Shown piece by piece: positions 1 through 63,770 of a DNA stretch of 64,000 bases. Below the pieces are notes generated by a model. That model was not told where the DNA came from, did not search any database, and saw nothing but the letters and a program-made list of their open reading frames with translations. How positions within the stretch are numbered: the first letter of the stretch is position 1; every line of letters starts with the position of its first letter. Source of the DNA: Telopea speciosissima (lineage: Eukaryota > Streptophyta > Magnoliopsida > Proteales > Proteaceae); NCBI RefSeq assembly GCF_018873765.1, contig NC_057918.1, forward strand, positions 11,664,862 through 11,728,861, in the 5' to 3' direction. Made by a program: the position numbers and the translations under genes.

Positions 1-140
1 AGCAATGGTATTACCTTGTCTAATAGTTAGCTGCTATTTGAAAGACTGCACAAGAAACCTGAAATCTCTTCTCATATTTTGTGCTTAGATCTTGAGCTAT
101 GCTTAGATTTGTTCAAGTGATCTCTCTCTGATGCATTCAG

Positions 141-5002: not shown

Positions 5003-8000
5003 TCAGGAGGATGTCAAGTTCTTTCCACCTACAACCCAATACTGTTTGACAGCAACCAATACTTTTTCACGGACCAGGGGACCATCCTCATGATCAACCA
5101 TTTTTGCATTCCACCTCATCCCTCCCACAATCTTCTTCACCTTGATCAGCACATCAACTTCATCACGGAATATTACTGCACCCTCAGGTCTTAGAATCCG
5201 ATCCATCTCTAGAAGAATGTCTTCTGCCTCACACCTGGCATTGTTTTTTGTGCAAATTTCAGGAAAAAAAGGGGCAAAAATGAAAGCTTTTACTACAAAA
5301 CTCATTTAAAAGCTGGAAAAACTTCTGATGACCTTAGAAATCTGCTGGCAACCATCTAAGCTGCCAATGGCATAAAGGTATAAGAGAAGGCCAAGCAAAA
5401 GGCGCAAGAACAACTTGACCCGATTTACTAACCATCCCATTTAGATACCTTTAAAATTGGAGGAGACAATCCAGTAAAACCTAGGCCAAGAAGTTTTGAT
5501 GGTTGAAAAATATAAGTTCATCAAATTTAGATCACCCTAGATAAGAACGCCTTTGAATTAGATACCTCACTCCAACCTAACTCATACACCAACTGATACA
5601 TATGTTTAACTCCTGAACCAGGTCTCCAAAAAACCTAAATGATTTCCTAAACCAACTGGAGCGTGTTTAACTCCCAAATCAGGTACTAAGAAGTTAGCAA
5701 CCATTCCAAAGCAAATTGATTAGTACGTTTCTTTTGATTCACACAAATTAATAAGTATGATGAACTCCCAAACCAGGTCTTTGGAAGCACTATCCAATCG
5801 TACAAGTCTGACAGCAAAATCAATACAAAAAACTTACTTGTTTTTGTATAAGCTGAAAACACCATTGGCATGAATAAGATCATACGTCCTTGGGTATGTA
5901 GAGAAAGCCTCACACCTGAACCAGGAAAAAGGAAGAATTATCAGTAAATAAATCAAGATATGAGAAAAACTAAAATATTAAGCAATTAAGCCTGGTTCAA
6001 ATAGAGTTTCTTTTTTCTACTTGAATTTAGAAAACATGCCTAATTTAGAGAAGATAGAACATAGACTGTTTCAGACAGGATGCAACGACAGCGACTCTCT
6101 CTCTCTCTCTCTTTCACACACATACACAAAGTAAAAGGAAACCCCCTTCCCACACCCCAAAATAATGCAAAAATGTAACAAAACTTGGACAGGAAGATTT
6201 AACCAAACTGACCACACCCAACTGAAAGAGCATTACTACTCTATGTATCTGACAAAGTAAAACTGGGCCACCACTAGGATTTAAACCATAAAGAAATTCT
6301 GGGAATATAAAACTACAGCCTTCCAGATACAGATTAAGAAACCTGATGGATCAGGCAAATTATCGTATATTGGCGACGAATGACAACACTCTTAAATTCT
6401 CCCTGACAAGCCTCTTCTGGAGCAGGTCCTGCACCAGTGCCGTTAAGGTGTGGACTTTTCCTTACAAATATCCTAGAATTTCACTGATGCTGGGACAATA
6501 TGAGTTCTCTTTTCCTCCCTCTTGGAAAGTGCAGAAAACTTCTAACAATGGATGACATGGTCTAAAGGAGGTAAAAATTTAATCAAGGCCCAAGTTTGGA
6601 CGGACAAACTTCCAATTTATACTCCATATAATAGGCAGCTACAGAAGAATTTAAATAAATGCTGTAATATATCATATCAGCTAACATAATTTTGTACCCT
6701 ATAAAACTTCTAACTGTTGTATACTTGTATCAGAGAACGCTGGTTGTCATTCCAATAGAGCACTTTGTGGAGGGAAGACCTCTATGGATGAAAGTCCAAT
6801 AAGTGTTTGTGAGGATTCTGGAGAGGGGCATGCCTATCAACTCATCAAGTGAGAAACTCTGGAAAGTACGTGTTTTAAACCATATCAATTAACTCAAGCT
6901 TAATGCTCCAAGGTTATGTTTTACCTAAGAGCATGCCGCTTATCATTAGCATTTGATTCTTTTCTTAACATGTATATGGATCATTGATTGCATTTGATTC
7001 TTCCATTCCTTTTATATAAAAAAACGAAAAAGGAAAATTTAATCAAGGAAAGAAATAGTAGAATTGTAGAAACTATGGGAAAGCTCAAGGGGACCAAGAG
7101 AATACAACCCATATAGAAGCAAGCTAAGAATGATCTCTTTAACAAACAAACAAAAACACACACACATATAAAGATGCAAGAGAGCGAGGAGAGGGAAAGA
7201 GATGCACACACACACCACGTGTTCTTCCACATGCATAGGATAAAAATAACTCAGTATTGATACTAAAATGGATAACTGGCAGGACTCGAAGGAGAAATTT
7301 AAACAAATAAACCACCATTTTCAGTAACTTAGATATAGCAGATATAACAAGAAAAACAGGGACCAATGACTTGCACCAACCAAGAATGACACAGTGAGTG
7401 ACAACAGCACAAGGGAAAGCCCAGAAAGTACTTGAATTGAAGCAACAAGAAAAAAAAACAAGGGAACATGATCTGGCCCCAGATATATTGGAGCTGCAGA
7501 ACAGGTTTCACACCATGTAGTTGGTTAAGTCTTAATGACTTGACCGTATATTGCTTTTAGAGGATGGAGCAAAAGCAAGTCCTCCTGGGTAATTCAATCT
7601 GTGAGAATACTAAATAGCACGGATGGCCCAATATAACCAATGCATTTGTACCGGACGGTAAAAACTCCAGGCTGCTAAAAAGGTCAATTATCAGAATCAT
7701 ATGAGCACTGAAAAAGATGCCCCTCTTTCACCAAGGATATGTATAAAGTGACCCGTATACTAAAAGCTACATCATAGATGCTAATTACCATATATGAGCT
7801 GCAAACAAGAGATTTATCAAATGCTACTACCATTATTTAAGATTTTTTCTGGTGACAGAAAAGTTTTACACCAGGTTAGTGAAGTTAAGAAATTACCAGT
7901 CATGATATATGCCAATCAATCCTCGTTCATAAATAACACCAAGAGTGTCTTTATCAGCAATTGTAGGCATAACATTCATAACCCACAGTTTTGGAGATTC

Positions 8001-10841
8001 AAGTGCTGCCGCAAAACTTCCCATTCCAGCATTCATATCCATTATGTTGCGGTACCTCCCCGAGTCAATGATTTGATTGATCTTCTTATAAGCCTTTACA
8101 TGCTTCTTCCATAATTTATTATCATCCAAATATGTCTCAACAGAAACTCCAGGGACAGATCCACCAGCTATTCTAGGGGGAACCGCATTAAGCCTCTCAG
8201 GAAAAGGTTTAAGCTCTCCTCCAGCAACTTCATCTTGATTATTAACCTCGGGATAAGGAGTTATACACACCTCCATTTTCTTGTACCTAGGACACCACCA
8301 AAAGGTAAAGTTCAGAGTGTAACAGCTTCTTAAAGGAGCAAACAAAAGGGCAATGATAAAAATTTTAAAGACACGAAAAAGAAAGAATAAAGAAGGAAAG
8401 CCATCTAAATATATTCGTCCTATCATTCTTCTAAAGCCTAGTCTATATCAACTCCATATTTGACTATGCTTGGTAGCATTTAACTGGCCTCATTAAGTCC
8501 AGACGTCTCCTACATGACTTTGAAACACTGGTGGTACCAAGTAGGCAATTTTGCTTCAACAATTTTCATTTTGTGCTATGTAAATTGTACCAACTGAAAC
8601 AGCACTTGGACAGGTTATCAAGACCCAAATTAATCTTATCATGTTGAATATGGCATGAAATTCAAGTGTATGAAATAATAAAATCAAAGCAGCTCCAAGG
8701 TTATTTTTCCTGAGTTGTAAAGATTTACAAATATTTCATCCGTCCCATTATATACTCAAATTCTTTATTTGCAGCACCAATATAACCTAAATTAGAAAGT
8801 GGGTAGCTAGCTAAGTAGTCGATATGAAGATAACTCACATAGAGAGTGAAGTGATACAACATAATTTTGAAATTCAGAACTTCACTCGATTTGATTTCTG
8901 CCTAGTAAAGCAACTTAGAAAATTGCCAATATTTATACATAGGCAAAAAAGCGAATTTATTTGGGGGGGGGGGGGGGGGGCAACCAACATAAACTCAAAA
9001 TCCAATGGTTAAGAAACCAGAGCCCCCAAAGAAAAAGTGATAAAGTCAAGTCAGCTTATGAAATTGAAAATGTATTAAATGAGTGAAAGGGTAATCCAAC
9101 CAGGAATCAGAGCATGAAAAAGGGGATAAGCTGGAGCAATGTCAAGTAACTCAGTTTTAAAACACATTATAAACCATTTGTTCTCAGCGGCTTCAGATTG
9201 CACTAACAAACAGGACACAAACAAGAACAATACTGGCAGAAATATTGCACAACCACTGACAATAATGAACTTTCCTCTAAAAACATAATACTAATTATAA
9301 GAAATAATTAAATATATAAACATACCAAGCATCATCTGGATTTTTAGATTCACAAATAGTAGCACGAGAATCATCTTGTCTTCCTCTACATGACTCAGCA
9401 TTTACTCTCTTCCTCCAGATGGCAATCTCACCCTTTTCATGCTTCTTTTCCCAGCAAAGACTTTTAGCCATCTCTTCAATCTTTCTCTGTTCCTCTTGGA
9501 GTTCCTCCTTAGGACGCTGCCATGATTTGTAGTTATTCTTCCAATTAATGGGAGGACCAGACAACACCCAGTAGCCCCCAGGTCTAAGGACTCGATCTAT
9601 TTCCATCATGTACATGCCATCTGCAAAGAAAAGAGAATAATATCAGAAGGAAGCCAGCATGAACATTATAGATATAAACATCAAATGAATAACAATAATG
9701 AGCACCAATGAGAATAATAATAGAACCAATAAAGAAAAATAGAACATGGTTGCATAAGTTTCAGAAAATCCAAAAACCCATTCCATTTCAAAGAGAAGGT
9801 TTTTTTGAGACAATAGCTTGTACGTAAATTAACTAACCATTTCCATGCCATGGAATCAAACAGCGAGAACAGTGAGCCATATCAAAAGCCCTAGATGGAT
9901 ATGGAACCTTTATGGTTCCAAGAACACCAATAACTGCTGGCACACCTCTTTCTAAAGCAAATTGAACTTGTGCTTCATGTGAATCTCTTGGGGCAAATGA
10001 CATGGCTATTACATTTCTTTTCCACAGGTATGCACCCAAACTCGCAACCTAAAGAAAGATCACCAATTGTCAGTGAATGAACTGAATCACCTAAACAACA
10101 AGGCGGCCATTCACTTCAACCAAGCTACTCAGATGTGAGATTCACAAAATAGATCATAGACCACAGAATTAATTGATTAAAAAGATCCTAACATACCCCA
10201 CATCCAGTGTCCAATGCAGTTCTGACTGTGCCATTTTCAATTGGGATCACAGAAGCAAGTTGATCAATATATGTATCAGCTCCTTGAGGAAACTGTGTTC
10301 CTCCACCAGGAAACCGAAACACATTGCCCTCATATTGAATCCAGTTCTGAACAGCTTTCTCAACTGTCAAGCTCTTATATGGTGCATTTGCATAGGGTAC
10401 ATAATCACGACTTTTTGGCCAAGGAAAAGGAGTCACATATCCTTTAGGTGCTGGAATAAGGCAATGCAGCTTCTCTTCCTCCGGAGGACAATGCCTTTCT
10501 CTGTAATTCATATCGTCTCTGGGGAAGGTCATAGCACGACTTTGATCTTGGCAGGGTGTGTAATCAGTATACTTAGCATCGCATGGCTTAAACACTGGAG
10601 CTTTTGAATCAGAATCGTCGATTACCCCAGCATCACCACCATGGTGGGTCTCAAAATTCAGATTTGACAGGATACTGCAATCTGTCTGCTTGGTGATCGC
10701 TAAAGCTATGCTGTCACCTTTCCCAAAACCACTTTTCTGCCAAGCTCCCAAAATATAGAAGAAACAACACAAACCAATAACAATAAATATAGAGACGGAG
10801 CTCCGTGTCCTATTGTCTGATGAATTCATTTTCATAGCCAT
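5003..10841 (-). CDS. PMT2: Probable Golgi pectin-type methyltransferase PMT2-like (DUF248 family), complete
   Basis: Six exons on the minus strand join in frame to 616 residues: 10841-10197, 10048-9838, 9620-9326, 8286-7897, 5915-5838 and 5234-5003. The family are type II Golgi membrane proteins thought to methylate cell-wall polysaccharides using S-adenosylmethionine. A short cytosolic tail is followed by a membrane anchor at residues 16-34 ([17 protein letters not shown]). Family blocks follow: [16 protein letters not shown], the SAM motif LDTGCG at about 210-215, [30 protein letters not shown], and near the C-terminus [15 protein letters not shown]. The start at 10841 gives [16 protein letters not shown], like PMT2. 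An in-frame ATG upstream lies before a probable 5'-UTR acceptor (minus-strand CAG ending at 10849). Residue 218 is Leu where I recall Trp in relatives (ASWGAYLW). Intron 4 is 1.98 kb. Confidence 0.95.
8963..8980 (+). repeat. Poly-G tract, 18 bp
   Basis: An uninterrupted run of G lies in PMT intron 3. Such tracts are prone to length errors in sequencing. No functional meaning is evident. Confidence 0.7.
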
Positions 10842-11980: not shown

Positions 11981-12720
11981 CGTCCATCCATCCCCAAGGA
12001 CCTCACAATGCCGTACGACATGGAAAATTTTGGTTTTTATTCTGCTTTCTCTTAACGTTATAATAACTAAAAGAATTCTTTATAATTTTGTGTTTCCGCG
12101 TACACATGAGTGCGTATGCTCATTACTCATTAGTCTTGCCTTGCCAACCAGTTGGCCCAATCCCACTGCTCCGCCGTGGGGTCAATCACGAAGTACTAAA
12201 ATATTGGGTCAAGTACACGTATCCCTTAGAATGCAACCAATATTTCTCGTACCTCTAACGGCTCAATATTCCACGTACCACTTCTGATTTACACCCCAAA
12301 TGCCATTTAAATTCACATCAGGTATTAAATACTATAAAATGACCAAACTACCCTATCTTCTATCTTTTCTAAAATTTGAAAAGACCTAATTGCCCTAACC
12401 TATTTGTTAAAATTTGAAAAAGACTAAAATGGCCATATCTTTCCCAAATCATCATCTTCTTTTACATACTCACCATCACCACCTCCACCACCACCACCGC
12501 CACTGCCGCCACTATTCTTATATGATCTCTGATCCTCAATAGCAATAATCTTCGCAGCACCTGTAACACAACCCATAAAGTGGCAGGAAAGAACATACAG
12601 TGGTTGTAATATCTGCAGTGGGAAAATAAAATTCTTCACCCCTCCAATAAATGAAAACCAGAAATCAGTAAGGAAACCCTACATCGGAAATGCAGACATT
12701 AAAAATATATTTAATAAATG
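11981..12720. other. Intergenic: PMT upstream region to palindrome left border
   Basis: No gene is recognised. A minus-strand Gly-rich frame at 12424-12639 comes from a CCACCACC repeat and is not convincing. The stretch directly left of 12721 is AT-rich and is not repeated at the right palindrome border. Confidence 0.6.
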
Positions 12721-12889
12721 GCAAAAGGTTTTCTGGTCGGCAGTGCAGATAAGGGAATCCATGGTCGGGAGTAATCTGATCCGTGTAAATGGTATCATTA
12801 AATCTCGTTCGTTAATTGATTTTTTAAACATCATACGGCATACGCTTTGTTTTTTTCTTTTGTATACTACGGTGTATATGATCCCAAAT

Positions 12890-13290
12890 ACGCACTCTCT
12901 CTCTCTCTCTCTCCTGTCGAACGCTTGGTTCTCGGTTGGGCCTACTCTCGACTCCCAGATTTCGAACCCCAATCTCTCTTATTCTTCTCTACGCGTTCTC
13001 TCACCTGTACCAGAGAGCAATCTAGATGCTGTAGATGGTTTCTGGTGATGGCGAAACTAGAGGGAAAACGATCGTATTTTTGTTGAATAGTCGGCGGAGT
13101 ATAGAAGAGAGAGATGAATCACAGTGCCGCTATCTTAATTGCCTAGCCCCCGATCTTGCTGCCTTACACTCTCATTAGCAATTTGCAGAACTTGAGGATG
13201 AATGGGTATCCTGCCTCTGCGCTCTCTGTCTCTCACCTTTCATCTTCTCTTATTCTCTCTTTTCCTTTCTAAATGCAGTGGGTTAGGAAT
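12890..13290 (+). other. Gene-start-like region of unidentified gene, left arm copy
   Basis: A CT-repeat leader is followed by a possible start at 13037 (MVSGDGETRGKTIVFLLN...), stopping after about 45 codons. A second short frame, MAKLEGKRSYFC, also begins here. The layout (CT-rich leader, short frame, long downstream introns) looks like the 5' end of a plant gene, but I recognise no family. The right arm has the same sequence with one C fewer in a run, which changes the reading frame. It could be a captured gene fragment or a non-coding transcript. Confidence 0.25.
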
Positions 13291-14599
13291 ATCACTTTTT
13301 ATTTTTCGGGGGGGGGGGGGTGGTTAAGAATTAGGAATACCTCTACATTCATTCATACAGACAAAAGTTCACTTATTGTATGGATTACTCAAATATCTAA
13401 ATACCCTATACATCCATACATATCTGTGGATTTGTCGTTCTGAATTTTTAAAATTTTTGCACATGATAATATCCAAATGTATTTGTATGTGTTTGTACAG
13501 GTCATGTTAGTGCCCAATGCCTGAAAAATCGAAATGAACTTGTTGGCAGTCTATCCCAATTTAGCTGCAGTAATTTACTTCTTGCTGATATTGACTTGGG
13601 ATGTCACCAACTTTTCTTCCCCTATCAAATAGAAGGTTTTTTGCAGATATGGTAGGACCTCTAGTTGAGATAGAGTGTCCAACTTGGCAATGATACAATG
13701 GTGTTGAAGGTTGATTTGTTGTTTATAAGTTTGTTTTGCAGATCATCTTTATAACTTAGTGATGCTCATAGTAATTGATTTATTGCATTTGGACAAAGAC
13801 CCCAAAAAAACACCCTTTTTCCTTGGTATGCTGGTTCTGTATCATATTGAATTTGAATATGGAATCTTGGGTGTTCTTATCAATTGTCACAGAATGGTTA
13901 CAGGAAACCAATGTTGTGCTTAGGAAACTCTTGCATAAACTCTAAGATAGAAGGGTTTTCTACTTTTTCTTTATGATAGGTAGAAGTTAGATTCAATATG
14001 CCTAAAGTGATTCTCTGCAAAATTGGGAAAAGTATGGGTCCTTGCAAAGGAGAAGCAGAAGAGGGAGGATTTGTTGAAAGATTCTAGTATTCCAAAAAGG
14101 AAAAAAGATTAGTTGGAGGTAGAATTTTTTCATTAAAATGACTTGTGTAGGTGATGAGTATTCAGATGATTTCTATAGCATTGCAAATGTTGCAAATCAG
14201 TTATTTCCTTCAGGTTGCAAAACATTGGATTGATGGAAAACAGATATGCAAAGGTGAAAATGCACATATTGTTGTTAAGAGTTTCTTGCCCTATCAAAGA
14301 TGCTTCTGTTTGTTACTTTTTAGAGAGCTTCATTAGTTCTTTTTCTTTTTAATCTGACAGCCTTGTTGTTCAGAGATTGGCTAAAGCTTTCATGGCTACT
14401 GCTGCCGGATCTGCCTCTATCTCTTTCAACTCTGCCACGGTTGTGGCCAAATCTGCCCTTTCCGGTGGTCGAACTGGTCAGAGGATTGTGCAGTTTCTGC
14501 AATGGCATAATCCGAAATATAAGAACATATTTATGAGATTGAGAGATTTATTTGAGATTTAAGATTATGTAGAATTCATGAACATTGAAGAGATTCTGT

Positions 14600-14611
14600 T
14601 ATTTTGGGGTT

Positions 14612-14645
<34 letters not shown>
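14600..14645 (+). repeat. (CT)n microsatellite
   Basis: A run of about 14 CT units. Its mirror is the (GA)n run near 23832-23857 in the right arm. Confidence 0.8.
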
Positions 14646-14646
<1 letters not shown>

Positions 14647-15875
14647 GAGCTACGCATCAACGACTTGTGTTTTGGATGGCTTATTTTTATTTGCAAGTGT
14701 TTTTTGTTAGGCTTCAAATTGCTAACCCTTACTGTTAAGTTAATGTATTGCATGTATTTGACCATTTTGTTGGAGTGGCTTTGTGTGATATTGGCTTGAG
14801 TTGTCATTAATTCCTATGATGAAAGATTAATGTTTATGTTGGCTTTGAATGGTTAGTTGGTCCATGCTAGATTTTGCATAATTATGGACTGTGCACATCA
14901 GCACTTTTTCCTTGTAAAAATTACATCATTTTTAATGTTCTGATATCTGATATATGTATTGGTATAATCTGAGAAGCAAACCAATTCCCATTTCACTTTT
15001 CGTAGTTGAGATGGATCACTTGGGCTGTTGTGCAACATCAGTCCAAATACGTAAAAGTATTTCACCATAGCAATGCTCGATTTATTCGTTGCCTTGGCAT
15101 CTTGTATTGAACCTGAGATTCCATTATTGCCTTTCTCAATGGTTATTGAAGGCCAGCGTGGTTCCTTTGTTTCTGTCTTAAAAATGCCACTAGTTTCAAT
15201 ATACTGAATTTAACCCATCAACTGGAACGATACCCAAGCTGCTTCCTCTGCCTCTTTTTTTATAGATGGACCCTCTCTTTCATATGGATGGTTTTTTAGG
15301 TGTGGACCCTCTCTTGTCATTTGGATGGTTTTGTAGGTGTGGTTTCTATCATCTTCATCTGTTTCCTACAGTCCTTAATTTGTTTCATAGTATTTTAAAG
15401 AGGACTGATCTGTGCAGGTATAATTTTTTGTCAACTAGAAAATGCTTTTGATTCGTCTTAATTGCAAGGTCTAGTCATTGAATTCATTATATTCTTAGTT
15501 AATCTGGTTTTGTAGTTTCTTGTTTAAGGTGATTCAAGGACAGATGGTTTTGTTTAGGAGTAATACATTTATATACCTTCAAGGACAAATCTGATTGCTT
15601 AAGAATTATACATTCATTTAAGAATGATATGTCAATATAGCTAATGGAACACCCAAATGGTTCTTTCTGTTACATTCATTTAAAAGTTTATATCTATTGA
15701 CAAGTAAAAATTTTCAGGTCTCTCTATCCTTATGTTCTTGGCTTTTTTTTTTCCCTCTCCTCCTCCCCATCTGATGGCCACTAGGCTGAGAAATTGTTTC
15801 CACCTTTTTATAATAAGTTAGTAATCTCTTGTCTTGGACTAATAATATGTCTGGGATGATGTCTTGAGTTAAAAC

Positions 15876-16019
15876 CTGATTGACATGTATGCAAAAAGTG
15901 GTCGGTTTGATTTTGCTGGAACAGAATACAGAAGAATGATTTTCTTTTCATGGAATGCAATTATTACTTGGTGCTTATTGTCAGGAACCATGCCTACAAT
16001 GTATGCCTTAACCACATGA
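15876..16019 (+). pseudogene. PPR (pentatricopeptide repeat) gene fragment, left arm
   Basis: Forty-seven codons before a stop contain LIDMYAKSGRFDFAG and FFSWNAIIT, the classic paired motifs of plant PLS-type PPR proteins (organelle RNA-binding editing factors). The sequence upstream and downstream has no continuing PPR frame, so this is an isolated remnant. The typical YAKSG-to-SWNAI spacing is kept. The mirror copy at 22456-22598 has lost one base in an A-run. Confidence 0.7.
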
Positions 16020-16596
16020 TTTTTGTTGATCTCTTTCATTGATTGCTTGTGGACTATCATGTTTGACATGATTTATATTGATCTCTTTTCATTGTAGTGG
16101 ATGATGCACTATCTCAATCTTAGGTGTTAACTCTATTCAATTTATGAATTGTGGTATATATAATTAATGAATTCCATTTTCAGTTCTCTAGACTTATTTG
16201 TTATTTTTGTAGGGCAGCAGGATAGTAGTTGACTAATGATTTATGAGAGTAGCTGAGGATTGATGATTTATGATAGGGGCTGTCTTAAGACTTTCTTTAT
16301 GAGATGTATCATGCGTGGCTGCATTTGGAATTGATAATTTTCATTTCAGTAGGTTTTAACTTATCAGTGTTGAATAGTGGATTATTCACATTCAATGGAT
16401 GAATGGTTCATGGACGCTTTACTGCTATTTCTTATTTGAGATATAGATCATGATGCAACCACATGATCTATTTTAATTGACATTGTAAAACTGAATTAAC
16501 ATGAAACCGTTTCAGTCATCCAATTCAATGTATTTGATGTTTGGTGACTTGTGAATCTTCTCAATGATAGTTGCTCTCTTTTGCTTTCTTATATGA

Positions 16597-16667
16597 GAGT
16601 CTTTAGCTCAAACAGGTAGAGCACTTGGGGATTCCCAATATATGGTGGTTCGAATCCACCAAGACTC
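16597..16667 (+). tRNA. tRNA-like sequence, left arm (probably pseudo-tRNA)
   Basis: These 71 bases fold like a tRNA. There is a perfect 7-bp acceptor stem (GAGTCTT with AAGACTC), a D-arm GCTC-AAACAGGTA-GAGC, and a perfect T-arm GGTGG-TTCGAAT-CCACC, so A-box and B-box consensus are present. The anticodon arm is poor: pairing is imperfect and T33 is missing, so no anticodon can be assigned with trust. It lies at the point where arm identity starts to fall. It could be a degenerate tRNA gene or a SINE head; the intact acceptor stem favours the former. Confidence 0.45.
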
Positions 16668-16718
16668 ATTTATTGTTATTAAGTCTAGGGTAAATTACTT
16701 TGTACACCTGCACCCCCC

Positions 16719-16947
16719 TTGCGTGAGATCGAGATGCATAACAAACGGATATCGATCAAGGATTGTGGTGAGTAGCTCATAATGGAGGGGCTTGAGTCTT
16801 CCGGTGTTGAGCTTCAACAGCGTAGAAGGATTTGCAGACTATAGATAATGATTTCTTGTCAAGAGGATTTTCATAGAGGAATTCAAGAATCACATAGAGA
16901 ATTTCTTCAGTGAGGAGATCAAAAGGGTTGAAGCCCAAGCCTTTCAT
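16719..16947 (-). pseudogene. F-box/LRR protein fragment, left arm
   Basis: On the minus strand, a start codon at 16947 opens MKGLGFNPFDLLTEEILYVI, continuing through ENPLDKKSLSIVCKSFY and VEAQHRKT. This is the F-box of FBL3-like F-box/LRR proteins, which recruit substrates to SCF ubiquitin ligases. Relatives read DLLTEEIL...DRKSFSLVCKEFYRVEA. A later 1-base loss shifts ELLTTILDRYPFVMHLDLTQ out of frame, and no LRRs follow. It is therefore a broken gene fragment. The right-arm copy carries a different frameshift. Confidence 0.7.
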
Positions 16948-18482
16948 GTTGAGGCATCATAAGATGCACAGTATATGACATTTTGTTTAGTTCCCCTCAT
17001 CCACACATCAACGCATGTGACAAGTGTCCTCCCCCTCCCCCCCTAATGGTGGAGTCGGACAACAAAGAGCTGATCACTTCATTATCACGTAATGAATCCT
17101 TGAATCAGATTCCAACGCTGAACATAGTTGGGGATATCCTCCATCTTGCAACTTTTTAACTTCTGTTCGTTTCACCATATTTCTAGGAAGATTAAAAACG
17201 AGGCGACTCCCGGCTCGAAGGGTGTTGTCCATAACGTGTAGGACTTCTTGGCCCATTTCCTCCCCATGAATGTCTGATATTTGTACTTTGGATATTGTGT
17301 GTCGTTCACGTTTCAATAAATAGCTTCCTTTATGCAGTGTTTTCCCAAAAAATTCCATCAATGTTTATTTTAATGAGATCATAGTGGAGGCAAAATAAGA
17401 TCGATTCAGGTCATCATTTGGATTAGTTTCCATGGTTGACATGCTCGACACTTAAGACAAGTGGGAAAATATATATTCCAAATCCAACAAACCAGGTCAA
17501 ATTGTTTGCCCTGAAAACCAATCAGTGTTTAATTTTGCAAGGAAGTGGCAAAAAAAATAAAAAATAAAAAATTGGACATTTAGTGAAAGGAATCGGTTGC
17601 TCTAGTTGACACATCAATGAACATTAACCATTTTATTCCTAAGATTGACAATAGAGTCGTTGTCGCCGAATTTGATCGATGTCGTGGATAACTTGCAAAG
17701 ATGAAGGGCACAAGGGGAACTTGGAGCGGACTTGAGGCCTAAGTCGGACCGAGCAACAACAATTACGAGGGGAATTCGAAAGAATAGTAGTTGTTGAATG
17801 AATGTATCTTGGCTCCCCTTAACTATATAAAGGACAAACAGTTGCAGAGTCTAGACTCTAGACTGGAGTAAAAGTCCATTGATGTTTAGTACTTATTTTA
17901 TTTTAATGTGATCATAGAAGAGGCAACATAATATCCATTTGGATCAGCATTTGGATTAATTACCATAGTTGACAAGTTAGTACTTGTGACAGGTTAGAAC
18001 AAAAAATTCCAAATCCAACAAATTGAAAATTTGGAAGGGAATGAAACTAGGGGAAAATTGGTAACTAGACTCCTCCAGTAGGGGTAGTTTTTGTAATTTC
18101 TAGAAACACAAGCAATTTTAAATTTTGAGAGGTAATTTTGAATTTTGAAGTGAGCTCAGTCTACCAACCATTGGATAGACATGGAATTCGATGTCGCAGC
18201 TTGGGAGTGGGCGCACGATGATGCTCAACCCCAGGCCATAGAGGATCTAAATATCGTTAACCATTTGAGTCCTTAGGTTGACAAGGTCCATCGATCATAT
18301 GATTCCAATCACCATAGAGTCTATAGGGCAAATCTTCTACCCAAAAGCGAGAAAAAAAGGGCTAGTCCCTGTTGATGCCACGTGGAATCCAATAGACTAG
18401 TGTGCATTATTTTCACATTTGATATTCAAAATCAAAACCTGTAGAAAATCATGGAAATCCCCAAGAGAATCCCTCCAAGAGA

Positions 18483-19222
18483 GTGAAATCTAATTGGAAT
18501 CGGCACATTAATCATATTGGACCGGGCATTCCTTCCCCATCTAAATATGAAACCCTTTCCACTTCGCCGTTTATTTTTCACCTGCTCAATCGTCGCTCCA
18601 TCTCTTTCTTGCTCTTTGAAGGACGAAGGCCGTCATCTTTGCAAAACCTCGACTCGCATCCCATTTCCTCTCCACTTCCTCGTCAACCACTGACCTTCTT
18701 TAACAACCTCCAGTGCTACTGCTTGTTGCTCTGCGATACGGCTCTTTGAGATCTGCTGCGCATTACCTTTGTGTCAAATTTTGGTGGAAACATGGTGAGA
18801 AACCCTACCCTCTCGAACTTGGGATGAGTATACACTACAAGATATTCAGTGCACGGCTCTGCGCAACCATCATTTCTTCTCTGCTACGCATTGCTACGAG
18901 AGGGCAAGTTTTGGTCGGACTTGAATTTGAAATTAGTAATTGCATCTATTGCAGGTATTGTTCTTAATTTTCATTTTATATTTTTGTTTTACTTGTTTTT
19001 CGTGTAATGAACAAATTCCTAGCGGAGTTCCTTGACATTGCGATTGATGCGGGAAGAGAGCCGAGAGGTCTTGTCGAAAACATTGTTTTTTATTTATTTC
19101 ACGGTTATTCGTTTAAAGGAGACACCAAGTTTCTTTTACAACACCTCAAACCTCGTCCTTCTTTTCCCTTGCTTTGCGAGATAATTGAAAAGGATTTTAC
19201 GAAACTAGCGAGTCAAGCATAA
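18483..19222 (+). other. Unidentified transcript-like region next to palindrome centre, left arm
   Basis: Near the palindrome centre, the left arm keeps a 71-codon frame at 19007-19222. It opens with MNKFLAEFLDIAIDAGREP and ends in FTKLASQA, 6 bp before the arm border. Upstream are plausible donor sites, ATG|GTGAGA near 18793 and GCAG|GTATTG near 18954. In the right arm the matching frame is broken by an extra A and other indels. I do not recognise the protein. It may be a gene remnant or chance. Confidence 0.25.
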
Positions 19223-19228
19223 AGGTCG

Positions 19229-19256
19229 TATCTTTCCGCCTTTACAAATGCCCTAC
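19229..19256. other. 28-bp spacer at the palindrome centre
   Basis: The arms end in GCATAAAGGTCG (left) and CGACCTTTATGC (right). The 28 bases between them are not symmetrical. A hairpin with 6.5-kb stems and a 28-base loop would form from single strands or RNA. Confidence 0.95.
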
Positions 19257-21521
19257 CGACCTTTATGCTTGACTCGCTAGTTTCGTAAAATCCTTTTGAA
19301 TTATCTGCAAAGCAAGGGAAAAGAAGGACGAGGTTTGAGGTGTTGTAAAAGAAACTTGGTGTCTCCTTTAAACGAATAATGTGAAATAAATAAAAACAAT
19401 GTTTTCGATAAGACCTCTCGACTCTCTTCCCGCATCAATCGCAATGTCAAGGAACTCCGCTTAGGAATTTGTTCATTACACGTAAAAACAAGTAAAACAA
19501 AAATATAAAATGAAAATTAAGAACAATACCGCAATAGATGCAATTACTAATTTCAAATTCAAGTCCGACCAAAACTTGCCCTCTCGTAGCAATGCGTAGT
19601 GTAGAAGAAATGATGGCTGCGCAGAGCAGCACTGTAATATCTTGTAGTGTATACTCATCCCAAGTTCGAGAGGGTAGGGTTTCTCACCATGTTTCCACCA
19701 AAATTTGACACAAAGGTAATGCGCAGCAGATCTCAAAGAGCCGTATCGCAGAGCAACAAAGCAGAAATGGGAGGTTGTTAAAGAAGGTCGTGGCTGACGA
19801 GGAAGTGGAGAGGAAATGGGGATGCGAGTCGAGGTTTTGCAAAGATGACGGCCTTCGTCCTTCAAAGAGCAAGAAAGAGATGGAGCGACGATTGAGCAGG
19901 TGAAAATAAACAAGGAAGTGGAAAGGGTTTCATATTTAGATGGGGAAGGAATGCCCGGTCCAATATGATTAATGTGCCGATTCCAATTAGATTTCACTCT
20001 CTTGGAGGGATTCTCTCATGGATTTCCATGATTTTCACAGGTTTTGATTTTGAATATCAAATGTGAAAATAATGCACACTAGTCTATTGGATTCCACGTG
20101 GCATCAACAGGACTAGCCCTTTTTTTCTCGCTTTTGGGTAGAAGATTTGCCCTATAGACTCTATGGTGATTGGAATCATATGATCGATGGACCTTGTCAA
20201 CCTAAGGACTCAAATGGTTAACGATATTTAGATCCTCTATGGCCTGGGGTTGAGCAGCCATCGTGCGCTCCACTCCCAAGTCGCGACATCGAATTCCATG
20301 TCTATCCAATGGTTGGTAGACGGAGCTCACTTCAAAATTCAAAATTACCTCTCAAAATTTAAAATTGCTTGTGTTTCTAGAAATTACAAAACTACCCCTA
20401 CTGGAGGAGTCTAGTTACCAATTTTCCCTAGTTTCATTCCCTTCCAAATTTTCAATTTGTTGGATTTGGAATTTTTGTTCTAACCTGTCACAAGTACTAA
20501 CTTGTCAACTATGGTAATTAATCCAAATGCTGATCCAAATGGATATTATGTTGCCTCTTCTATGATCACATTAAAATAAAATAAGTACTAAACATCAATG
20601 GACTTTACTCCACCAGAGTCTAGACTCTGCAACTGTTTGTCCTTTATATAGTTAAGGGGAGCCAAGATACATTCATTCAACAACTACTATTCTTTCGAAT
20701 TCCTCCTCGTAATTGTTGTTGCTCGGTCCGACTTAGGCCTCGAAGTCCGCTCCAAGTTCCCCTTGTGCCCTTCATCTTTGCAAGTTATCCACGACATCGA
20801 TCAAATTCGACGACAAAGACTCTATTGTCAATCTTAGGAATAAAATGGTTAATGTTCATTGATGTGTCAACTAGAGCAACCGATTCCTTTCACTAAATGT
20901 CCAATTTTTTATTTTTTATTTTTTTGCCACTTCCTGCAAAATTAAACACTCGATTGGTTTTCGTGGCAAACAATTTGACCTGGTTTGTTGGATTTGGAAT
21001 ATATATTTTCCCACTTGTCTTAAGTGTCGAGCATGTCAACCATGGAAACTAATCCAAATGATGACCGAATCGATCTTATTTTGCCTCCACTATGATCTCA
21101 TTAAAATAAACATTGATGGAATTTTTGGGAAAACACTCGCATAAAGGAAGCTATTTATTGAAACGTGAACGACACACAATATCCAAAGTACAAATATCGA
21201 CATTCATGGGGAGGAAATGGGCCAAGAAGTCCTACACGTTATGGACAACACCCTTCGAGTCGGGAGTCAGCTACGTTTTTAATCTTCCTAGAAATATGGT
21301 GAAACGAACAGAAGTAAAAAGTTGCAAGATGGAGGATATCCCCAACTATGTTCAGCGTTGGAATCTGATTCAAGGATTCATTACGTGATAATGAAGTGAT
21401 CAGCTCTTTGTTGTCCGACTCCACCATTAGGGGAGGGGAGGACACTTGTCACATGCGTTGATGTGTGGATGAGGGGAACTAAACAAAATGTCATATACTG
21501 TGCATCTTATGATGCCTCAAC

Positions 21522-21748
21522 ATGAAAGGCTTGGGCTTCAACCCTTTTGATCTCCTCACTGAAGAAATTCTCTATGTGATTCTTGAATTCCTCTATGAAA
21601 ATCCTCTTGACAAGAAATCATTATCTATAGTCTGCAAATCCTTCTACCGTTGAAGCTCAACACCGGAAGACTCAAGCCCCTCCATTATGAGCTACTCACC
21701 ACAATCCTTGATCGATATCCGTTTGTTATGCATCTCGATCTCACGCAA
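21522..21748 (+). pseudogene. F-box/LRR protein fragment, right arm
   Basis: This is the mirror of the left-arm fragment. It opens with MKGLGFNPFDLLTEEILYVI and then reads DKKSLSIVCKSFYR, followed by a stop caused by small losses relative to the left copy. The remaining part, YELLTTILDRYPFVMHLDL, is readable in another frame. The F-box is recognisable but the gene is broken and has no LRR region. Confidence 0.7.
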
Positions 21749-21806
21749 GGGGGGGGGGGGTTGCAGGTGTACAAAGTAATTTACCCTAGACTTAATAACA
21801 ATAAAT

Positions 21807-21878
21807 GAGTCTTGGTGGATTCGAACCACCATATATTGGGGAATCCCCAAGTGCTCTACCTGTTTGAGCTAAAGACTC
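21807..21878 (-). tRNA. tRNA-like sequence, right arm (probably pseudo-tRNA)
   Basis: At 72 bases it is one longer than the left copy (an extra C in the anticodon arm), which gives a better anticodon stem with 4 of 5 pairs and a four-base variable loop. The loop GGATTCC lacks T33. The nominal anticodon would be ATT, which is not trustworthy. Acceptor and T stems are perfect. Confidence 0.45.
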
Positions 21879-22455
21879 TCATATAAGAAAGCAAAAGAGA
21901 GCAACTATCATTGAGAAGATTCACAAGTCACCAAACATCAAATACATTGAATTGGATGACTGAAACGGTTTCATGTTAATTCAGTTTTACAATGTCAATT
22001 AAAATAGATCATGTGGTTGCATCATGATCTATATCTCAAATAAGAAATAGCAGTAAAGCGTCCATGAACCATTCATCCATTGAATGTGAATAATCCACTA
22101 TTCAACACTGATAAGTTAAAACCTACTGAAATGAAAATTATCAATTCCAAATGCAGCCACGCATGATACATCTCATAAAGAAAGTCTTAAGACAGCCCCT
22201 ATCATAAATCATCAATCCTCAGCTACTCTCATAAATCATTAGTCAACTACTATCCTGCTGCCCTACAAAAATAACAAATAAGTCTAGAGAACTGAAAATG
22301 GAATTCATTAATTATATATACCACAATTCATAAATTGAATAGAGTTAACACCTAAGATTGAGATAGTGCATCATCCACTACAATGAAAAGAGATCAATAT
22401 AAATCATGTCAAACATGATAGTCCACAAGCAATCAATGAAAGAGATCAACAAAAA

Positions 22456-22598
22456 TCATGTGGTTAAGGCATACATTGTAGGCATGGTTCCTGACAATAA
22501 GCACCAAGTAATAATTGCATTCCATGAAAAGAAAATCATTCTTCTGTATTCTGTTCCAGCAAAATCAAACCGACCACTTTTGCATACATGTCAATCAG
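22456..22598 (-). pseudogene. PPR gene fragment, right arm
   Basis: This is the mirror of 15876-16019, with one base lost in a homopolymer so that DMYAKSG is out of frame with the following SWNAIIT block. It is an isolated remnant without neighbouring PPR repeats. Confidence 0.65.
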
Positions 22599-23830
22599 GT
22601 TTTAACTCAAGACATCATCCCAGACATATTATTAGTCCAAGACAAGAGATTACTAACTTATTATAAAAAGGTGGAAACAATTTCTCAGCCTAGTGGCCAT
22701 CAGATGGGGGAGGAGGAGAGGGAAAAAACAAAAGCCAAGAACATAAGGATAGAGAGACCTGAAAATTTTTACTTGTCAATAGATATAAACTTTTAAATGA
22801 ATGTAACAGAAAGAACCATTTGGGTGTTCCATTAGCTATATTGACATATCATTCTTAAATGAATGTATAATTCTTAAGCAATCAGATTTGTCCTTGAAGG
22901 TATATAAATGTATTACTCCTAAACAAAACCATCTGTCCTTGAATCACCTTAAACAAGAAACTACAAAACCAGATTAACTAAGAATATAATGAATTCAATG
23001 ACTAGACCTTGCAATTAAGACGAATCAAAAGCATTTTCTAGTTGACAAAAATTATACCTGCACAGATCAGTCCTCTTTAAAATACTATGAAACAAATTAA
23101 GGACTGTAGGAAACAGATGAAGATGATAGAAACCACACCTACAAAACCATCCAAATGACAAGAGAGGGTCCACACCTAAAAAACCATCCATATGAAAGAG
23201 AGGGTCCATCTATAAAAAAGAGGCAGAGGAAGCAGCTTGGGTATCGTTCCAGTTGATGGGTTAAATTCAGTATATTGAAACTAGTGGCATTTTTAAGACA
23301 GAAACAAAGGAACCACGCTGGCCTTCAATAACCATTGAGAAAGGCAATAATGGAATCTCAGGTTCAATACAAGATGCCAAGGCAAGCGAATAAATCGAGC
23401 ATTGCTATGGTGAAATACTTTTACGTATTTGGACTGATGTTGCACAACAGCCCAAGTGATCCATCTCAACTACGAAAAGTGAAATGGGAATTGGTTTGCT
23501 TCTCAGATTATACCAATACATATATCAGATATCAGAACATTAAAAATGATGTAATTTTTACAAGGAAAAAGTGCTGATGTGCACAGTCCATAATTATGCA
23601 AAATCTAGCATGGACCAACTAACCATTCAAAGCCAACATAAACATTAATCTTTCATCATAGGAATTAATGACAACTCAAGCCAATATCACACAAAGCCAC
23701 TCCAACAAAATGGTCAAATACATGCAATACATTAACTTAACAGTAAGGGTTAGCAATTTGAAGCCTAACAAAAAACACTTGCAAATAAAAATAAGCCATC
23801 CAAAACACAAGTCGTTGATGCGTAGCTCGC

Positions 23831-23861
<31 letters not shown>

Positions 23862-25179
23862 AACCCCAAAATAACAGAATCTCTTCAATGTTCATGAATT
23901 CTACATAATCTTAAATCTCAAATAAATCTCTCAATCTCATAAATATGTTCTTATATTTCGGATTATGCCATTGCAGAAACTGCACAATCCTCTGACCAGT
24001 TCGACCACCGGAAAGGGCAGATTTGGCCACAACCGTGGCAGAGTTGAAAGAGATAGAGGCAGATCCGGCAGCAGTAGCCATGAAAGCTTTAGCCAATCTC
24101 TGAACAACAAGGCTGTCAGATTAAAAAGAAAAAGAACTAATGAAGCTCTCTAAAAAGTAACAAACAGAAGCATCTTTGATAGGGCAAGAAACTCTTAACA
24201 ACAATATGTGCATTTTCACCTTTGCATATCTGTTTTCCATCAATCCAATGTTTTGCAACCTGAAGGAAATAACTGATTTGCAACATTTGCAATGCTATAG
24301 AAATCATCTGAATACTCATCACCTACACAAGTCATTTTAATGAAAAATTCTACCTCCAACTAATCTTTTTTCCTTTTTGGAATACTAGAATCTTTCAACA
24401 AATCCTCCCTCTTCTGCTTCTCCTTTGCAAGGACCCATACTTTTCCCAATTTTGCAGAGAATCACTTTAGGCATATTGAATCTAACTTCTACCTATCATA
24501 AAGAAAAAGTAGAAAACCCTTCTATCTTAGAGTTTATGCAAGAGTTTCCTAAGCACAACATTGGTTTCCTGTAACCATTCTGTGACAATTGATAAGAACA
24601 CCCAAGATTCCATATTCAAATTCAATATGATACAGAACCAGCATACCAAGGAAAAAGGGTGTTTTTTGGGGTCTTTGTCCAAATGCAATAAATCAATTAC
24701 TATGAGCATCACTAAGTTATAAAGATGATCTGCAAAACAAACTTATAAACAACAAATCAACCTTCAACACCATTGTATCATTGCCAAGTTGGACACTCTA
24801 TCTCAACTAGAGGTCCTACCATATCTGCAAAAAACCTTCTATTTGATAGGGGAAGAAAAGTTGGTGACATCCCAAGTCAATATCAGCAAGAAGTAAATTA
24901 CTGCAGCTAAATTGGGATAGACTGCCAACAAGTTCATTTCGATTTTTCAGGCATTGGGCACTAACATGACCTGTACAAACACATACAAATACATTTGGAT
25001 ATTATCATGTGCAAAAATTTTAAAAATTCAGAACGACAAATCCACAGATATGTATGGATGTATAGGGTATTTAGATATTTGAGTAATCCATACAATAAGT
25101 GAACTTTTGTCTGTATGAATGAATGTAGAGGTATTCCTAATTCTTAACCACCCCCCCCCCCCCCGAAAAAAAAAGTGAT

Positions 25180-25580
25180 AATCCTAACCCACTGCATTTA
25201 GAAAGGAAAAGAGAGAATAAGAGAAGATGAAAGGTGAGAGACAGAGAGCGCAGAGGCAGGATACCCATTCATCCTCAAGTTCTGCAAATTGCTAATGAGA
25301 GTGTAAGGCAGCAAGATCGGGGCTAGGCAATTAAGATAGCGGCACTGTGATTCATCTCTCTCTTCTATACTCCGCCGACTATTCAACAAAAATACGATCG
25401 TTTTCCCTCTAGTTTCGCCATCACCAGAAACCATCTACAGCATCTAGATTGCTCTCTGGTACAGGTGAGAGAACGCGTAGAGAAGAATAAGAGAGATTGG
25501 GGTTCGAAATCTGGGAGTCGAGAGTAGGCCCAACCGAGAACCAAGCGTTCGACAGGAGAGAGAGAGAGAGAGAGTGCGTA
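25180..25580 (-). other. Gene-start-like region of unidentified gene, right arm copy
   Basis: This is the mirror of 12890-13290. The frame starting at 25434 (MVSGDGETRGKTIVF...) is longer here, 78 codons, because a C-run is one base shorter. It also carries the MAKLEGKRSYFC frame. No family is recognised. Confidence 0.25.
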
Positions 25581-25748
25581 TTTGGGATCATATACACCGT
25601 AGTATACAAAAGAAAAAAACAAAGCGTATGCCGTATGATGTTTAAAAAATCAATTAACGAACGAGATTTAATGATACCATTTACACGGATCAGATTACTC
25701 CCGACCATGGATTCCCTTATCTGCACTGCCGACCAGAAAACCTTTTGC

Positions 25749-26816
25749 CCATTATTATTAGGAAAAATACCTTAATATTCAATCTAATAGTTTGAAGGAT
25801 CAAGTCGTACACCATAGTAAGAATACTAATTTAAATATTTTTATTGTTATTTTAATATCACTTGCCCACATTTTAATTGAAATAAAATGGAACCCCTGTA
25901 GATCATGATGGGCATGATTTTAAGGGGGGCTTCTTCTCATTGATTATGCTTGCCGTGTCCTTAACAAAGTAAGGCCATGATTTTACGTGGAGATTGCTTT
26001 CAGATTCTAATCTGTGACCACTTGATCACAAATCTAACAATCGAACAATCATACGATTGAAATTTTTCTCTATACAAGGGTACAAAAGAAAGGGAAAAAG
26101 AGATAAAAGAAAATAAATCTTCTGATGGACCTTTGATCTTCGAATGTTAGTACTCATTAGGTTTATATCTTCAAATGTTAGGTCGGATCCCTCTTTACCT
26201 TTTCTCCACGGGATGGAATTCTTTTTCTATTATTGTATATCTGTATTTATATCTCTTTTGATCCTGTATTTCATGGATATATAATTGCAGGAGAAGAATG
26301 GGGGCTGGGAAAAAAGTAGACTTTGGGAGATGGGGTTCAGTGCATGTCGGTGACACAGTTGGAGCCACACATCCACGATCTGAAATCTGACTTCCCTTTT
26401 GTTTATATTCTCTCTCCCTATTCTATTCTTAGATGTAATTTATCCAATTAGATCCAGTGTCTCAGTCACTCTAATGCCCTTTTTCCTATATAATGTAAAT
26501 ATGTTTTTCTCTATCTAATAGTAATATAAGAATGTTTCCCATCAAAAAAATTAGATCCAGTATCTCAGTCAGAGATGTCTGAATACTGAAGATCCAAGAC
26601 TATAGATCCCATCCTTCCAGCGGCAACCCTATTTGATAGATCCACAAATAATTTAGGCTGTGTTTGTTTGATAAGGGAGAAGAGAGAATAGAAAAGAAAA
26701 ATTAATTTCTGTATGTGTTTGATTTACATAGAAAATAGAAGAAAAGATGGTTCGTTATTTTAATCATGCCCCTTCATCACCTCTTTCTCGAGTCCGGATC
26801 AGGTCCCCAGAGTTTT
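25749..26816. other. Intergenic, right of the palindrome
   Basis: AT-rich DNA with no convincing gene and no continuation of the palindrome. A short direct repeat, AATTAGATCCAGTGTCTCAG / AATTAGATCCAGTATCTCAG, occurs near 26446 and 26549, suggesting minor repeat debris. Confidence 0.5.
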
Positions 26817-27650: not shown

Positions 27651-29166
27651 GGAATTTCCTAGATCTACTAGATTAAAAAAAGATTTACAAAATCAATAGC
27701 AGTAAATTATATTTTACATTCATAAGTTACTTACTTTAAAAAGATTTACCTAACCCCCATGTGAGTAAAAGAAGTTAAATGAATAACCCAAAATGCCCCA
27801 ACATCCTCTCTCTTTGTTCTTCTTTTCCGACGGAACCAACCACTTTCTCCTGCAACAACTACCTTGATCCCCCTCCCTTGCAATCCCGCCCCACTCCTTG
27901 CAAACCCACCCTACACCAACACCTCCACCGCCAGCCACCCCTCCCGCAGGAGAAGGAGGGTGTTTTATTTTCTAAGCATCTTATTGGATGGTCAAGCATC
28001 CAAACTGCCATGAAATACCTGATTTACATTGGATCATTTGGCGAAAACCAGGAATCACGAAAGATTGTTGTGTTATCACCCTGATTTAGTTCTCATGACC
28101 TCACACCTCCGCCTAAAATTGAGGAATTTGAAGTATCGTATAGCATGAGAATCGCCATAGGAGTGGAACTCCAAGTTGAGAGTTCACATTAACATCATCT
28201 TAAATCATTATGTAGTAATCTTTAAACTGATTGAATTCAATTCTCAGTACCCAAACAGGCGTTGAACCAGTTTCTCTCCCTAACTTCAGAAATCTCCAAT
28301 GTCTTGTTGCAAATAGTTGCTTTTTGGTAAAAATTCAAGGCTAACTCTCCACATCCTCATTTCCAAGTTTTTTTTTTTTCTTTTTCCAATTGAAATAAAC
28401 ATTTATGGGCCATCGTCACTCAGAAGCAGATCCCACCATCGTTTGAGGATAGAGAGAAGAGGACTGAGGGGCTGAATTTCAATAGTGGGTTTATTGTTCT
28501 TGTTCTTCTTCGGAGGATTTCCTTTGCTACTCTAAACAGAAGAATTAATGGTATCCTAATCACCTAATAGTATGACCAAGAATAAAAAAGAAACCTGAAT
28601 TGCAGGATCAGGAGGAACTAGATTTAGAGAGAAAATACGACATTCACAATCTGCTGGTCAGATGGACTAGGTATGCTGGTTGAAGGGTCTATAGGAATAG
28701 AAATATAATTTCCAATATTAGGGACAATCCATTGGTCAGATAGTGAGTTATGGTCTGGACAAAAATTAGTAACTTTCTAAAAGAGTGATCCTCAGTTCTA
28801 TAACTCCTTGTGCAGAACAAAGATAGGGTCTGTTGTGATCAAGAATTTAATATGCGGCTGCGGGAGGAGGGAGGGGTGGCTGGCGGTGGAGGTGGTGGTG
28901 CAGGGCGGGTTTGCAAGGAGAAGGGTGGGGCGGGATTGCAGGGGAGGGGGATCGAGGGAGTAGTTGTAGGAGAGAGTGGTTGGTTCCGACGGAGAAGGAG
29001 AGAGAAAAGGATGTTGGGGGCATTTTGGGTTATTCATTTAACTTCTTTTATTTGCATGGGAGTTTGATAAATCTTTTTAAATCAATTAACTTATGAATAT
29101 AAAACATAATTTACAGCTACTGGTTTTATAAATCTTTTTTTTAATCTAGTAGATGTAGCAAATTCC
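27651..29166. mobile_element. Non-autonomous DNA transposon with ~300-bp terminal inverted repeats
   Basis: Long terminal inverted repeats cover 27651-27949 and 28858-29166 with, by eye, about 85% identity. The ends read GGAATTTCCTAGATCTACTA and, in complement, GGAATTTGCTACATCTACTA. The C-rich inner parts of the repeats create Gly- or Pro-rich chance frames on both strands. The 0.9-kb centre shows no transposase. Long TIRs suggest a Mutator-like derivative, but I found no clear target duplication. Confidence 0.65.
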
Positions 29167-45797: not shown

Positions 45798-46192
45798 TCT
45801 CTCTCTCTCTTCTGTGTTTTGCAAAATCTTAGAGGCTTAGGTTACCCTTCTTAGCTTCTCTTTTGAAGAAGACTAAAGAGTGAAATCGGACTTCGATTCG
45901 TATTTCCGCACTCGGAAGAAGGCAAGGTAAGCAGCGCGGGCGTTGTGAATTTGTCGTGATGATTCGTCAGTCACAACCGTGGTCTATGCAATAGATCATT
46001 TGATCACGAACTCACGACCGACCAGAGATAATAGCTTCCTGCGTTTTCCACTCCTTCCAATAGCGGGAAACAGCATTAGTAGGGGCAGGGTTTGGAGAAT
46101 TGGAAGCCAAGTCCTTAGTTAACCCACCCTTTAAAAAACTTGTTTTTTCTTTTGCATATAAGTGTATTTATATATTAAAATATTAGGAGAAT

Positions 46193-46314
46193 GTTCTTTG
46201 TGCCACAGCGCAGCCTGTGCCCAGGCATATGGGCAGCCTGTGCAAGGGGGGCAGGGTGGTCATTGCACCCTCCCCCATGTGCCTTAGCACAGGCTGCGCT
46301 GCGACACAAAGAAC
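46193..46314. repeat. MITE-like hairpin, 122 bp
   Basis: The ends are GTTCTTTGTGCCACAGCGCA and its near-complement ending CACAAAGAAC, about 28 bp paired with two mismatches. The centre is GC-rich and short. It is probably non-autonomous. Confidence 0.7.
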
Positions 46315-46320
46315 AACACC

Positions 46321-46490
46321 CTTAAAATAGTTTTTAATTAAACATTTGAATACGTGTAGTGCATTAACTAACTAAGGTCCAAACAGGGTGATAAAGAACA
46401 GCACCCTTAAAATATTTTTTAATTAAACATTTGAATACGTATATAATATGTGTATTAACTAACTAAGGTCCAAACAGGGTCAAACTCTAT
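46321..46490. repeat. Tandem duplication, period about 85 bp
   Basis: Two copies begin CTTAAAATA.TTTTTAATTA and end CTAAGGTCCAAACAGGGT. They start at 46321 and 46406. The link between them (AAAGAACAGCACC) resembles the end of the adjacent hairpin, so the duplication may have included the MITE edge. Confidence 0.75.
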
Positions 46491-61000: not shown

Positions 61001-61629
61001 GAAAACTTGTTGTACATGTGAGCCCTCTAATATCTCTGATCCACCAGTTGAAAACATAGAATAGAAGTGGAACTAGTATTCTTTATCTAAACTTGGAAAC
61101 AAATGTTTCTTTTTAAAATAATTAGACTAGTATTCTCAGAAGTTTTATGCTTCTATCAGTGAAATTTTATGAGCATGGTTCATAGTTGAAATACCTGGTT
61201 TTCCTCCAGGAGATGTAAAGAAAACACTTCCATTGATGAATCCGAATCTTCTGCCGTACTGCAAGGTGTACAGTGCACATCCTGGGGCGAATATTTCTAT
61301 ACTTCATTGACTGCATTTAACGTGTGGTTGTGTTTTGGGAATAAAAAAATTGTAGTAAAATTCAAAGTTCCCACCCGTGCTTTTCTTTGTTAAATAAAAG
61401 ATGAAAGAGATTTGAGTTATACTGCTTTTAAATTTTCTATTCTTTATTGATCCTTTCCATTTACGAAAACAAAATCTCACCGAACACCATTCTTTGTTTT
61501 TCTTTTTCTATTGGTTCTTTATTTGGTGTTATTCTGTAATTTTGTGGAATCTGAATCAACAGGGAAACATTTAATCAAATTGCAACATTTATAGTCCCTC
61601 TTCGAATACTCATAATCGGGGACCAGGAT

Positions 61630-63663: not shown

Positions 63664-63770
63664 TTATCTAGTATTGAAAGGTTGCTTCATTATCTGTATT
63701 GCACACTAAACAGCAGACTTCAAGTATGGGAAGAATGGGTCCCTTGTGTTGGAGTTTTTCAACATAATGA

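Follow-up and report, generated by a model that had tools for sequence, protein, structure and literature searches.

A 13-kb palindrome in an assembly of Telopea speciosissima and the error-like differences between its arms

We analyzed a stretch of 64,000 bases of the Telopea speciosissima assembly GCF_018873765.1 (contig NC_057918.1, positions 11,664,862 to 11,728,861; hereafter the window; 38% G+C, zero N), which harbors a large palindrome. In a blastn search of the window against itself, positions 12712-25757 matched their own reverse complement in a single alignment of 13,112 columns (E=0), with an identity of 98.3%, a figure in which each difference is counted twice. Self-blastn and a direct alignment of the arms delimited a left arm (12712..19228, plus strand), whose outermost 9 bp (12712-12720) match imperfectly, a 28-bp spacer (19229..19256) lying between TAAAGGTCG and CGACCTTTA, and a right arm (19257..25757, minus strand) that is the reverse complement of the left one. 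Between their clean ends the arms measure 6,508 (12721-19228) and 6,492 bases (19257-25748), about 6.5 kb each. The 13-kb palindrome with 6.5-kb arms and a 28-bp spacer claimed by an earlier note on this DNA was thus borne out by self-blastn, its limits lying at most 9 bp from 12721-25748. Among 40 inverted pairs detected in 12000-26500, 25 listed pairs have one common centre (start+end about 38,475), the longest perfect pair among those listed being 743 nt long (100%). Reverse complementarity around one centre far exceeds the chance level, which identifies a palindrome and excludes a chance origin.

No second copy of an arm was found by self-blastn elsewhere in the window, nor did 11-bp words of the spacer and its edges occur there a second time. 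Outside 12712 and 25757 the two flanks did not align to each other, either in the self-blastn or in the arm alignment, in agreement with the different flanks reported by the earlier note. A weak AT-rich resemblance seems to link the outer borders, and the outermost arm bases match each other poorly.

The arms carry gene fragments. At the outer end of the left arm, a segment with a CT microsatellite, CG richness and a short open frame (12860..13090, plus strand) resembles a promoter or 5' leader; 23 CG dinucleotides were counted in 12700-13199 and 22 in its mirror, 25200-25699, on the minus strand of the right arm. Both promoter-like ends face inward, toward each other, an anatomy in which convergent or hairpin transcription would be possible. 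Further inward lie a degraded PPR-like fragment (15873..16016, plus strand; Pfam PPR E=0.007, under the curated cut-off), a transfer RNA (tRNA)-like sequence (16597..16668, plus strand; Rfam RF00005, 52.8 bits) with its mirror copy at 21806-21878, an F-box fragment (16779..16950, minus strand; Pfam F-box_5, 27.6 bits against a cut-off of 25.5, E=2.2e-6) and, nearer the centre, a directly repeated unit of about 128 bp whose two copies are 79% alike by self-blastn (17364-17491 and 17897-18022, spanning 17364..18022, plus strand). The tRNA-like region gave no match when compared with plasmids. A six-frame scan of the left arm revealed no Pfam transposase at E<=0.1 and a LisH_WDR26 match at chance level (E=0.059), and the inner open frame 18968-19222, used as a query for homologues, returned no match.

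To compare the arms, 12721-19228 and 19257-25748 were aligned with MAFFT, and differences at most 12 columns apart were merged into one place. Of its 6,528 columns, 52 were substituted, and 44 separate gap events were counted (98.35% identity), all of these differences falling into 47 places; clusters of substitutions in it are partly paired indels. Where a place was a single column wide (n = 26), it was a 1-bp indel in 25 instances and a substitution in only one. As controls we used 12 of the 15 repeat matches in the window other than that of the palindrome itself, the remaining three being mirror copies of a repeat within the arms. The control pairs, one of which lies inside the left arm, showed 206 substitutions and 22 gaps, a spectrum significantly different from that of the arms (Fisher p=1.7e-12), also after omission of the in-arm pair (180 vs 20; p=1.2e-11). 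Gaps were found more often in the right arm than in the left (30 vs 14; p=0.023), meaning that bases are missing more frequently from the right arm.

The places were sparse toward the outer ends and dense near the centre. A change point was located at 16631 (support 16441-17271), with a likelihood gain of 13.1, whereas the largest gain across 200 uniform simulations was 7.3. For the analyses that follow, the arms were cut at 16700, a limit picked post hoc; cuts at 16500 and 17154 gave the same picture. The outer zone of the left arm (12721..16699, plus strand) comprises 12 places, 11 of which touch a homopolymer of at least 4 bases, compared to a null mean of 2.4, the observed count being reached in 0 of 1000 randomisations; CG or CHG sites were not enriched there (3/12 vs 3.8 expected). 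The inner zone (16700..19228, plus strand) comprises 35 places, 28 of them touching CG or CHG (null mean 16.2) and 22 touching CHG alone (8.7), observed counts that were again reached in 0 of 1000 randomisations, and homopolymers were also enriched (18/35 vs 10.1 expected). The control dinucleotides TA, AC/GT, GA/TC and TG/CA, scored with slightly wider limits, were not enriched in either zone, and the last three of these pairs were depleted in the outer zone, as homopolymer-sited places would give. Seven triplets ranked highest among the 32 possible at inner places (wider limits, 36 places): CCG, CAG, CGC, ACG, GCC, CCC and CGA. CAG/CTG was exchanged with CG at 9 of the 35 inner places. When scored by arm, CAG/CTG was fewer in the right arm at 9/35 places and in the left arm at 4/35, a difference that was not significant (p=0.27, computed with slightly wider limits).

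Base composition follows the same zonation. The observed/expected ratio of CAG/CTG was 1.20 in the left outer zone, where that of CG was 0.36, both near the flank values; in the left inner zone the ratios were 0.60 and 0.70, and the right inner zone (19257..21790, minus strand) was alike, at 0.53 and 0.74. Among 2-kb bins, CAG/CTG was lowest in the inner zones (down to 0.49), where CG was raised, the flanks giving 1.28 and 1.16. Two other parts of the window, 46001-49000 and 62001-64000, resemble the inner arms in being CAG/CTG-poor (0.64-0.76) and richer in CG, perhaps as other methylated repeat DNA. With CAG/CTG similarly scarce in these bins, at about 46-49 and 62-64 kb, the inner composition need not stem from the palindrome, and may be just that of transposon-like DNA of this genome.

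Taken by their spectrum, the differences between the arms are mostly miscalls at homopolymers and at CG/CHG sites, with the character of sequencing errors, and mutation of the kind recorded in the controls would not give this pattern. Since the differences look like sequencing error rather than mutation, the true identity of the two arms is probably near 100%. The small differences described in the earlier note are therefore present, and their meaning needs correcting: they are mostly error-like indels and short clusters, not mutations. For the same reason they are unusable as a signal of divergence or of gene conversion, and dating of the arms by divergence was rejected. Three single differences were available to polarise the comparison: one A of a homopolymer, at 15893, interrupts the PPR-like frame of the right arm while the left arm keeps it open, the F-box frame across 16819 is likewise intact on the left and broken on the right, and the tRNA-like copy is one C shorter on the left, in the anticodon region. 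All three fit a loss of bases by error; mutation is also possible, the genes being decayed or unproven.

The simplest reading of the error pattern is a poorly polished consensus of nanopore type with miscalls at methylated cytosines, which would imply both a nanopore origin of the reads and CG/CHG methylation of the inner zones. Methylation differences likely reduce the accuracy of nanopore basecalling in plants, according to the available part of PMC9749173. That part names no CHG-specific error (0 occurrences of CHG), and the accessible text of PMC12862388 gives no direct support for such miscalls, the link to CHG being our own inference.

Two origins come into question for such near-identical arms: an inverted duplication that is very young or has been homogenised, and a product of the assembly. 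We put at about an even chance that the palindrome is a real and very young inverted duplication of the plant nuclear genome, read with noisy long reads and badly polished. A single inverted duplication normally leaves this layout of left flank, arm, inverted arm and right flank, which a lone fold-back read does not explain. Polishing would have been bad because reads cannot be placed uniquely in the arms, and a rise in differences toward the centre is expected if unique placement is confined to the vicinity of the flanks. The left flank offers a comparison, in the form of a gene of the PMT2 type encoding a methyltransferase (Methyltransf_29; 5009-10841, minus strand), recognized by its profile match and by tblastn to plant homologues, the start codon of which is situated about 1.9 kb to the left of the palindrome. 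With an exon of this flank as query, 511 proteins were retrieved at E<=1e-20. Most of the best 120 of these are unnamed; those with an organism name all came from flowering plants, three of them being PMT2 or PMT2-like and the others methyltransferase, hypothetical, uncharacterised or unnamed proteins. Against the organism-named plant proteins among the matches listed, identity of the first exon reached 84%. Every exon of this gene, with about 1.8 kb of coding sequence, lies within a single-frame tblastn block, so that the excess of errors belongs to the arms and not to this flank. That the arms are less accurate than the left flank is predicted by a real palindrome and by an artefact alike.

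If the duplication is real, it would likely have arisen when a 3' end folded back on the short inverted repeat GGTCG / CGACC with a loop of 28 nt, synthesis copied about 6.5 kb backwards, and the end was then joined to unrelated DNA at the right border, the site of the weak AT-rich resemblance between the flanks. The arrangement at the centre, TAAAGGTCG, 28 nt and CGACCTTTA, would be the expected remnant of a strand folded on such a short inverted match. Given the weak AT-rich borders and the lack of a convincing target-site duplication, a template switch would fit better than transposition.

Several points weigh against a real duplication. Instability is to be expected of palindromes that are almost perfect and have so small a spacer. 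A real palindrome, read on both strands, should err symmetrically, which does not agree with the excess of gaps in the right arm, unless coverage was low or ties in read placement were broken one way. Folding of a strand in vitro also produces a fold-back with a 28-nt loop, and in one tumour study, cited in the part of PMC12870357 available, fold-back artefacts typically made up 1-4% (up to 20-30%) of genomic reads.

The main rival is an origin in the library or the assembly, in which one or a few fold-back reads, or a fold-back in vitro, gave the centre, and a second misjoin or a distant real copy of the arm gave the right flank. We consider this quite possible, if on balance somewhat improbable. 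As nearly all differences are error-like, a single molecule could have supplied both arms; indeed, fold-back should give arms identical save for sequencing error, as the difference spectrum indicates, a result that a very young real duplication predicts equally. The errors peak in density around the centre and affect the right, or second, arm more than the left. Nanopore reads are described in the accessible text of PMC7229812 as less accurate, with bases missed, past an inverted junction, and the central rise appears in line with such a loss whether the junction formed in the plant or in the library. Artefacts of this kind also have a precedent, given that numerous inverted duplications in a gorilla Y assembly made from amplified DNA were judged artefactual (PMC6218980, in the portion available). 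On the other hand, a lone fold-back would run into the complement of the left flank, and 38 kb of different DNA is found instead. The argument that the earlier note drew from the flanks is accordingly sound against the simplest artefact, and leaves a fold-back with a second misjoin, or two real arm copies misjoined. An artefact thus requires a second fault at the right border, in a window devoid of any N, and normal reads, if they covered the locus, should have corrected the inner zone. A comparison of the spacer with four adapter sequences detected no significant similarity (lowest uncorrected shuffle fraction 0.052 among eight tests) and hence no adapter remnant at the centre, an absence that is not decisive, as fewer than half of putative fold-back reads held searchable sequence between their halves in the available text of PMC12870357.

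Two further explanations have little probability. Long terminal inverted repeats are known in plant elements, and the sharp symmetrical ends could mark the palindrome as one complete transposon with giant terminal inverted repeats, of the foldback or MULE type; this is very unlikely. The 7-bp word AAAAATA occurs near both borders (uncorrected null fraction 0.043), as does an 11-bp window with 9 matches (0.047), but the AAAAATA copies sit some 5 bp beyond the borders, and neither fraction withstands correction for the ten word lengths tested, so no convincing target-site duplication is present. The poor match of the outermost arm bases, the lack of a transposase in the left-arm scan and that of a further arm copy within the window also speak against it. 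A similarly slight chance attaches to a heterozygous inversion, or to two distant inverted arm copies joined in error, with the left and right borders taken from different haplotypes or copies. Both border junctions would then be real and only the centre false. This reading therefore needs a false centre too, and alleles or older copies should show isolated substitutions, of which there is just the one among the 26 one-column places.

Palindromes have been described in plants before. Those of the Salix purpurea W chromosome, W.P1 and W.P2, share four arms that are more than 99% alike on average, and are likewise plant nuclear palindromes with highly similar arms (PMC7023750, in the part available). 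They carry expressed genes, and gene conversion was tested against a sister species, in contrast to the single pair of 6.5-kb arms with gene fragments only described here. The palindrome studied here is smaller than those of the willow, and its 28-bp spacer is far shorter than that of W.P1, which the same source gives as 2.6 kb in its text and 3,586 bp in its table. Yeast fold-backs formed by strand annealing are similar in that a short loop separates the inverted copies, and in that system intramolecular fold-back is favoured by a spacer of 12 bp; they begin from pre-existing 2-kb or Alu inverted repeats, unlike the short central inverted match proposed here (PMC6103520 and PMC10164571, available parts). 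Long-read fold-back artefacts also resemble this locus, with forward and reverse strands joined near-perfectly at one point with little or no intervening sequence, but they are single reads that return over the same flank, whereas the right flank is different here (PMC12870357, as far as available).

In our literature search on long inverted repeats no plant survey was found; one part of it brought up a paper on Arabidopsis eccDNA, and another, aimed at such repeats with hairpins and siRNA in plants, gave no paper. LIRBase is said to be a survey of such repeats, and the inverted-repeat loci soybean CHS, Arabidopsis PAI and poplar ARR17 reportedly produce small interfering RNAs. With these loci the palindrome shares inverted copies that permit a hairpin transcript, and the sequence bears on the siRNA idea of the earlier note only in that such a transcript would be anatomically possible. 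Its two inward promoter-like ends might yield convergent or hairpin transcripts, and it is conceivable, though we think it unlikely, that a young palindrome silences itself in this way, its hairpin or convergent RNA directing DNA methylation and the resulting inner CG/CHG methylation being recorded by the miscalled CG and CAG/CTG sites. If so, the consensus errors would be a readable trace of methylation.

A real element would stand out among plant palindromes as unusually young and compact; with its two borders and its centre all available, it would lend itself to studying the formation of large inverted duplications and to asking whether they silence themselves. Otherwise, it would be a case of unrelated flanks lending false credibility to a palindrome. 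In both cases, arm-to-arm differences in assemblies of this sort should first be examined for a bias toward homopolymers and CG/CHG sites, and only then be taken as a sign of divergence or gene conversion.

The rest of the window contains minor features. A phosphofructokinase exon (PF00365) lies at its left edge (132-524, plus strand), and an exon of an ASC-1/TRIP4-like zinc-finger gene (zf-C2HC5) at 43591-44382 on the minus strand. A segment of 1.5 kb whose ends form an inverted pair of about 295 bp each, 86% alike, is located 1.9 kb right of the palindrome (27651-29166) and may be a DNA transposon. Short hairpins of 124-155 bp with halves 74-86% alike, possibly miniature inverted-repeat transposable elements (MITEs), were found at 36983-37137, 46192-46315 and 61628-61759, and a tandem duplication of 105 bp, 92% alike, at 60113-60321.

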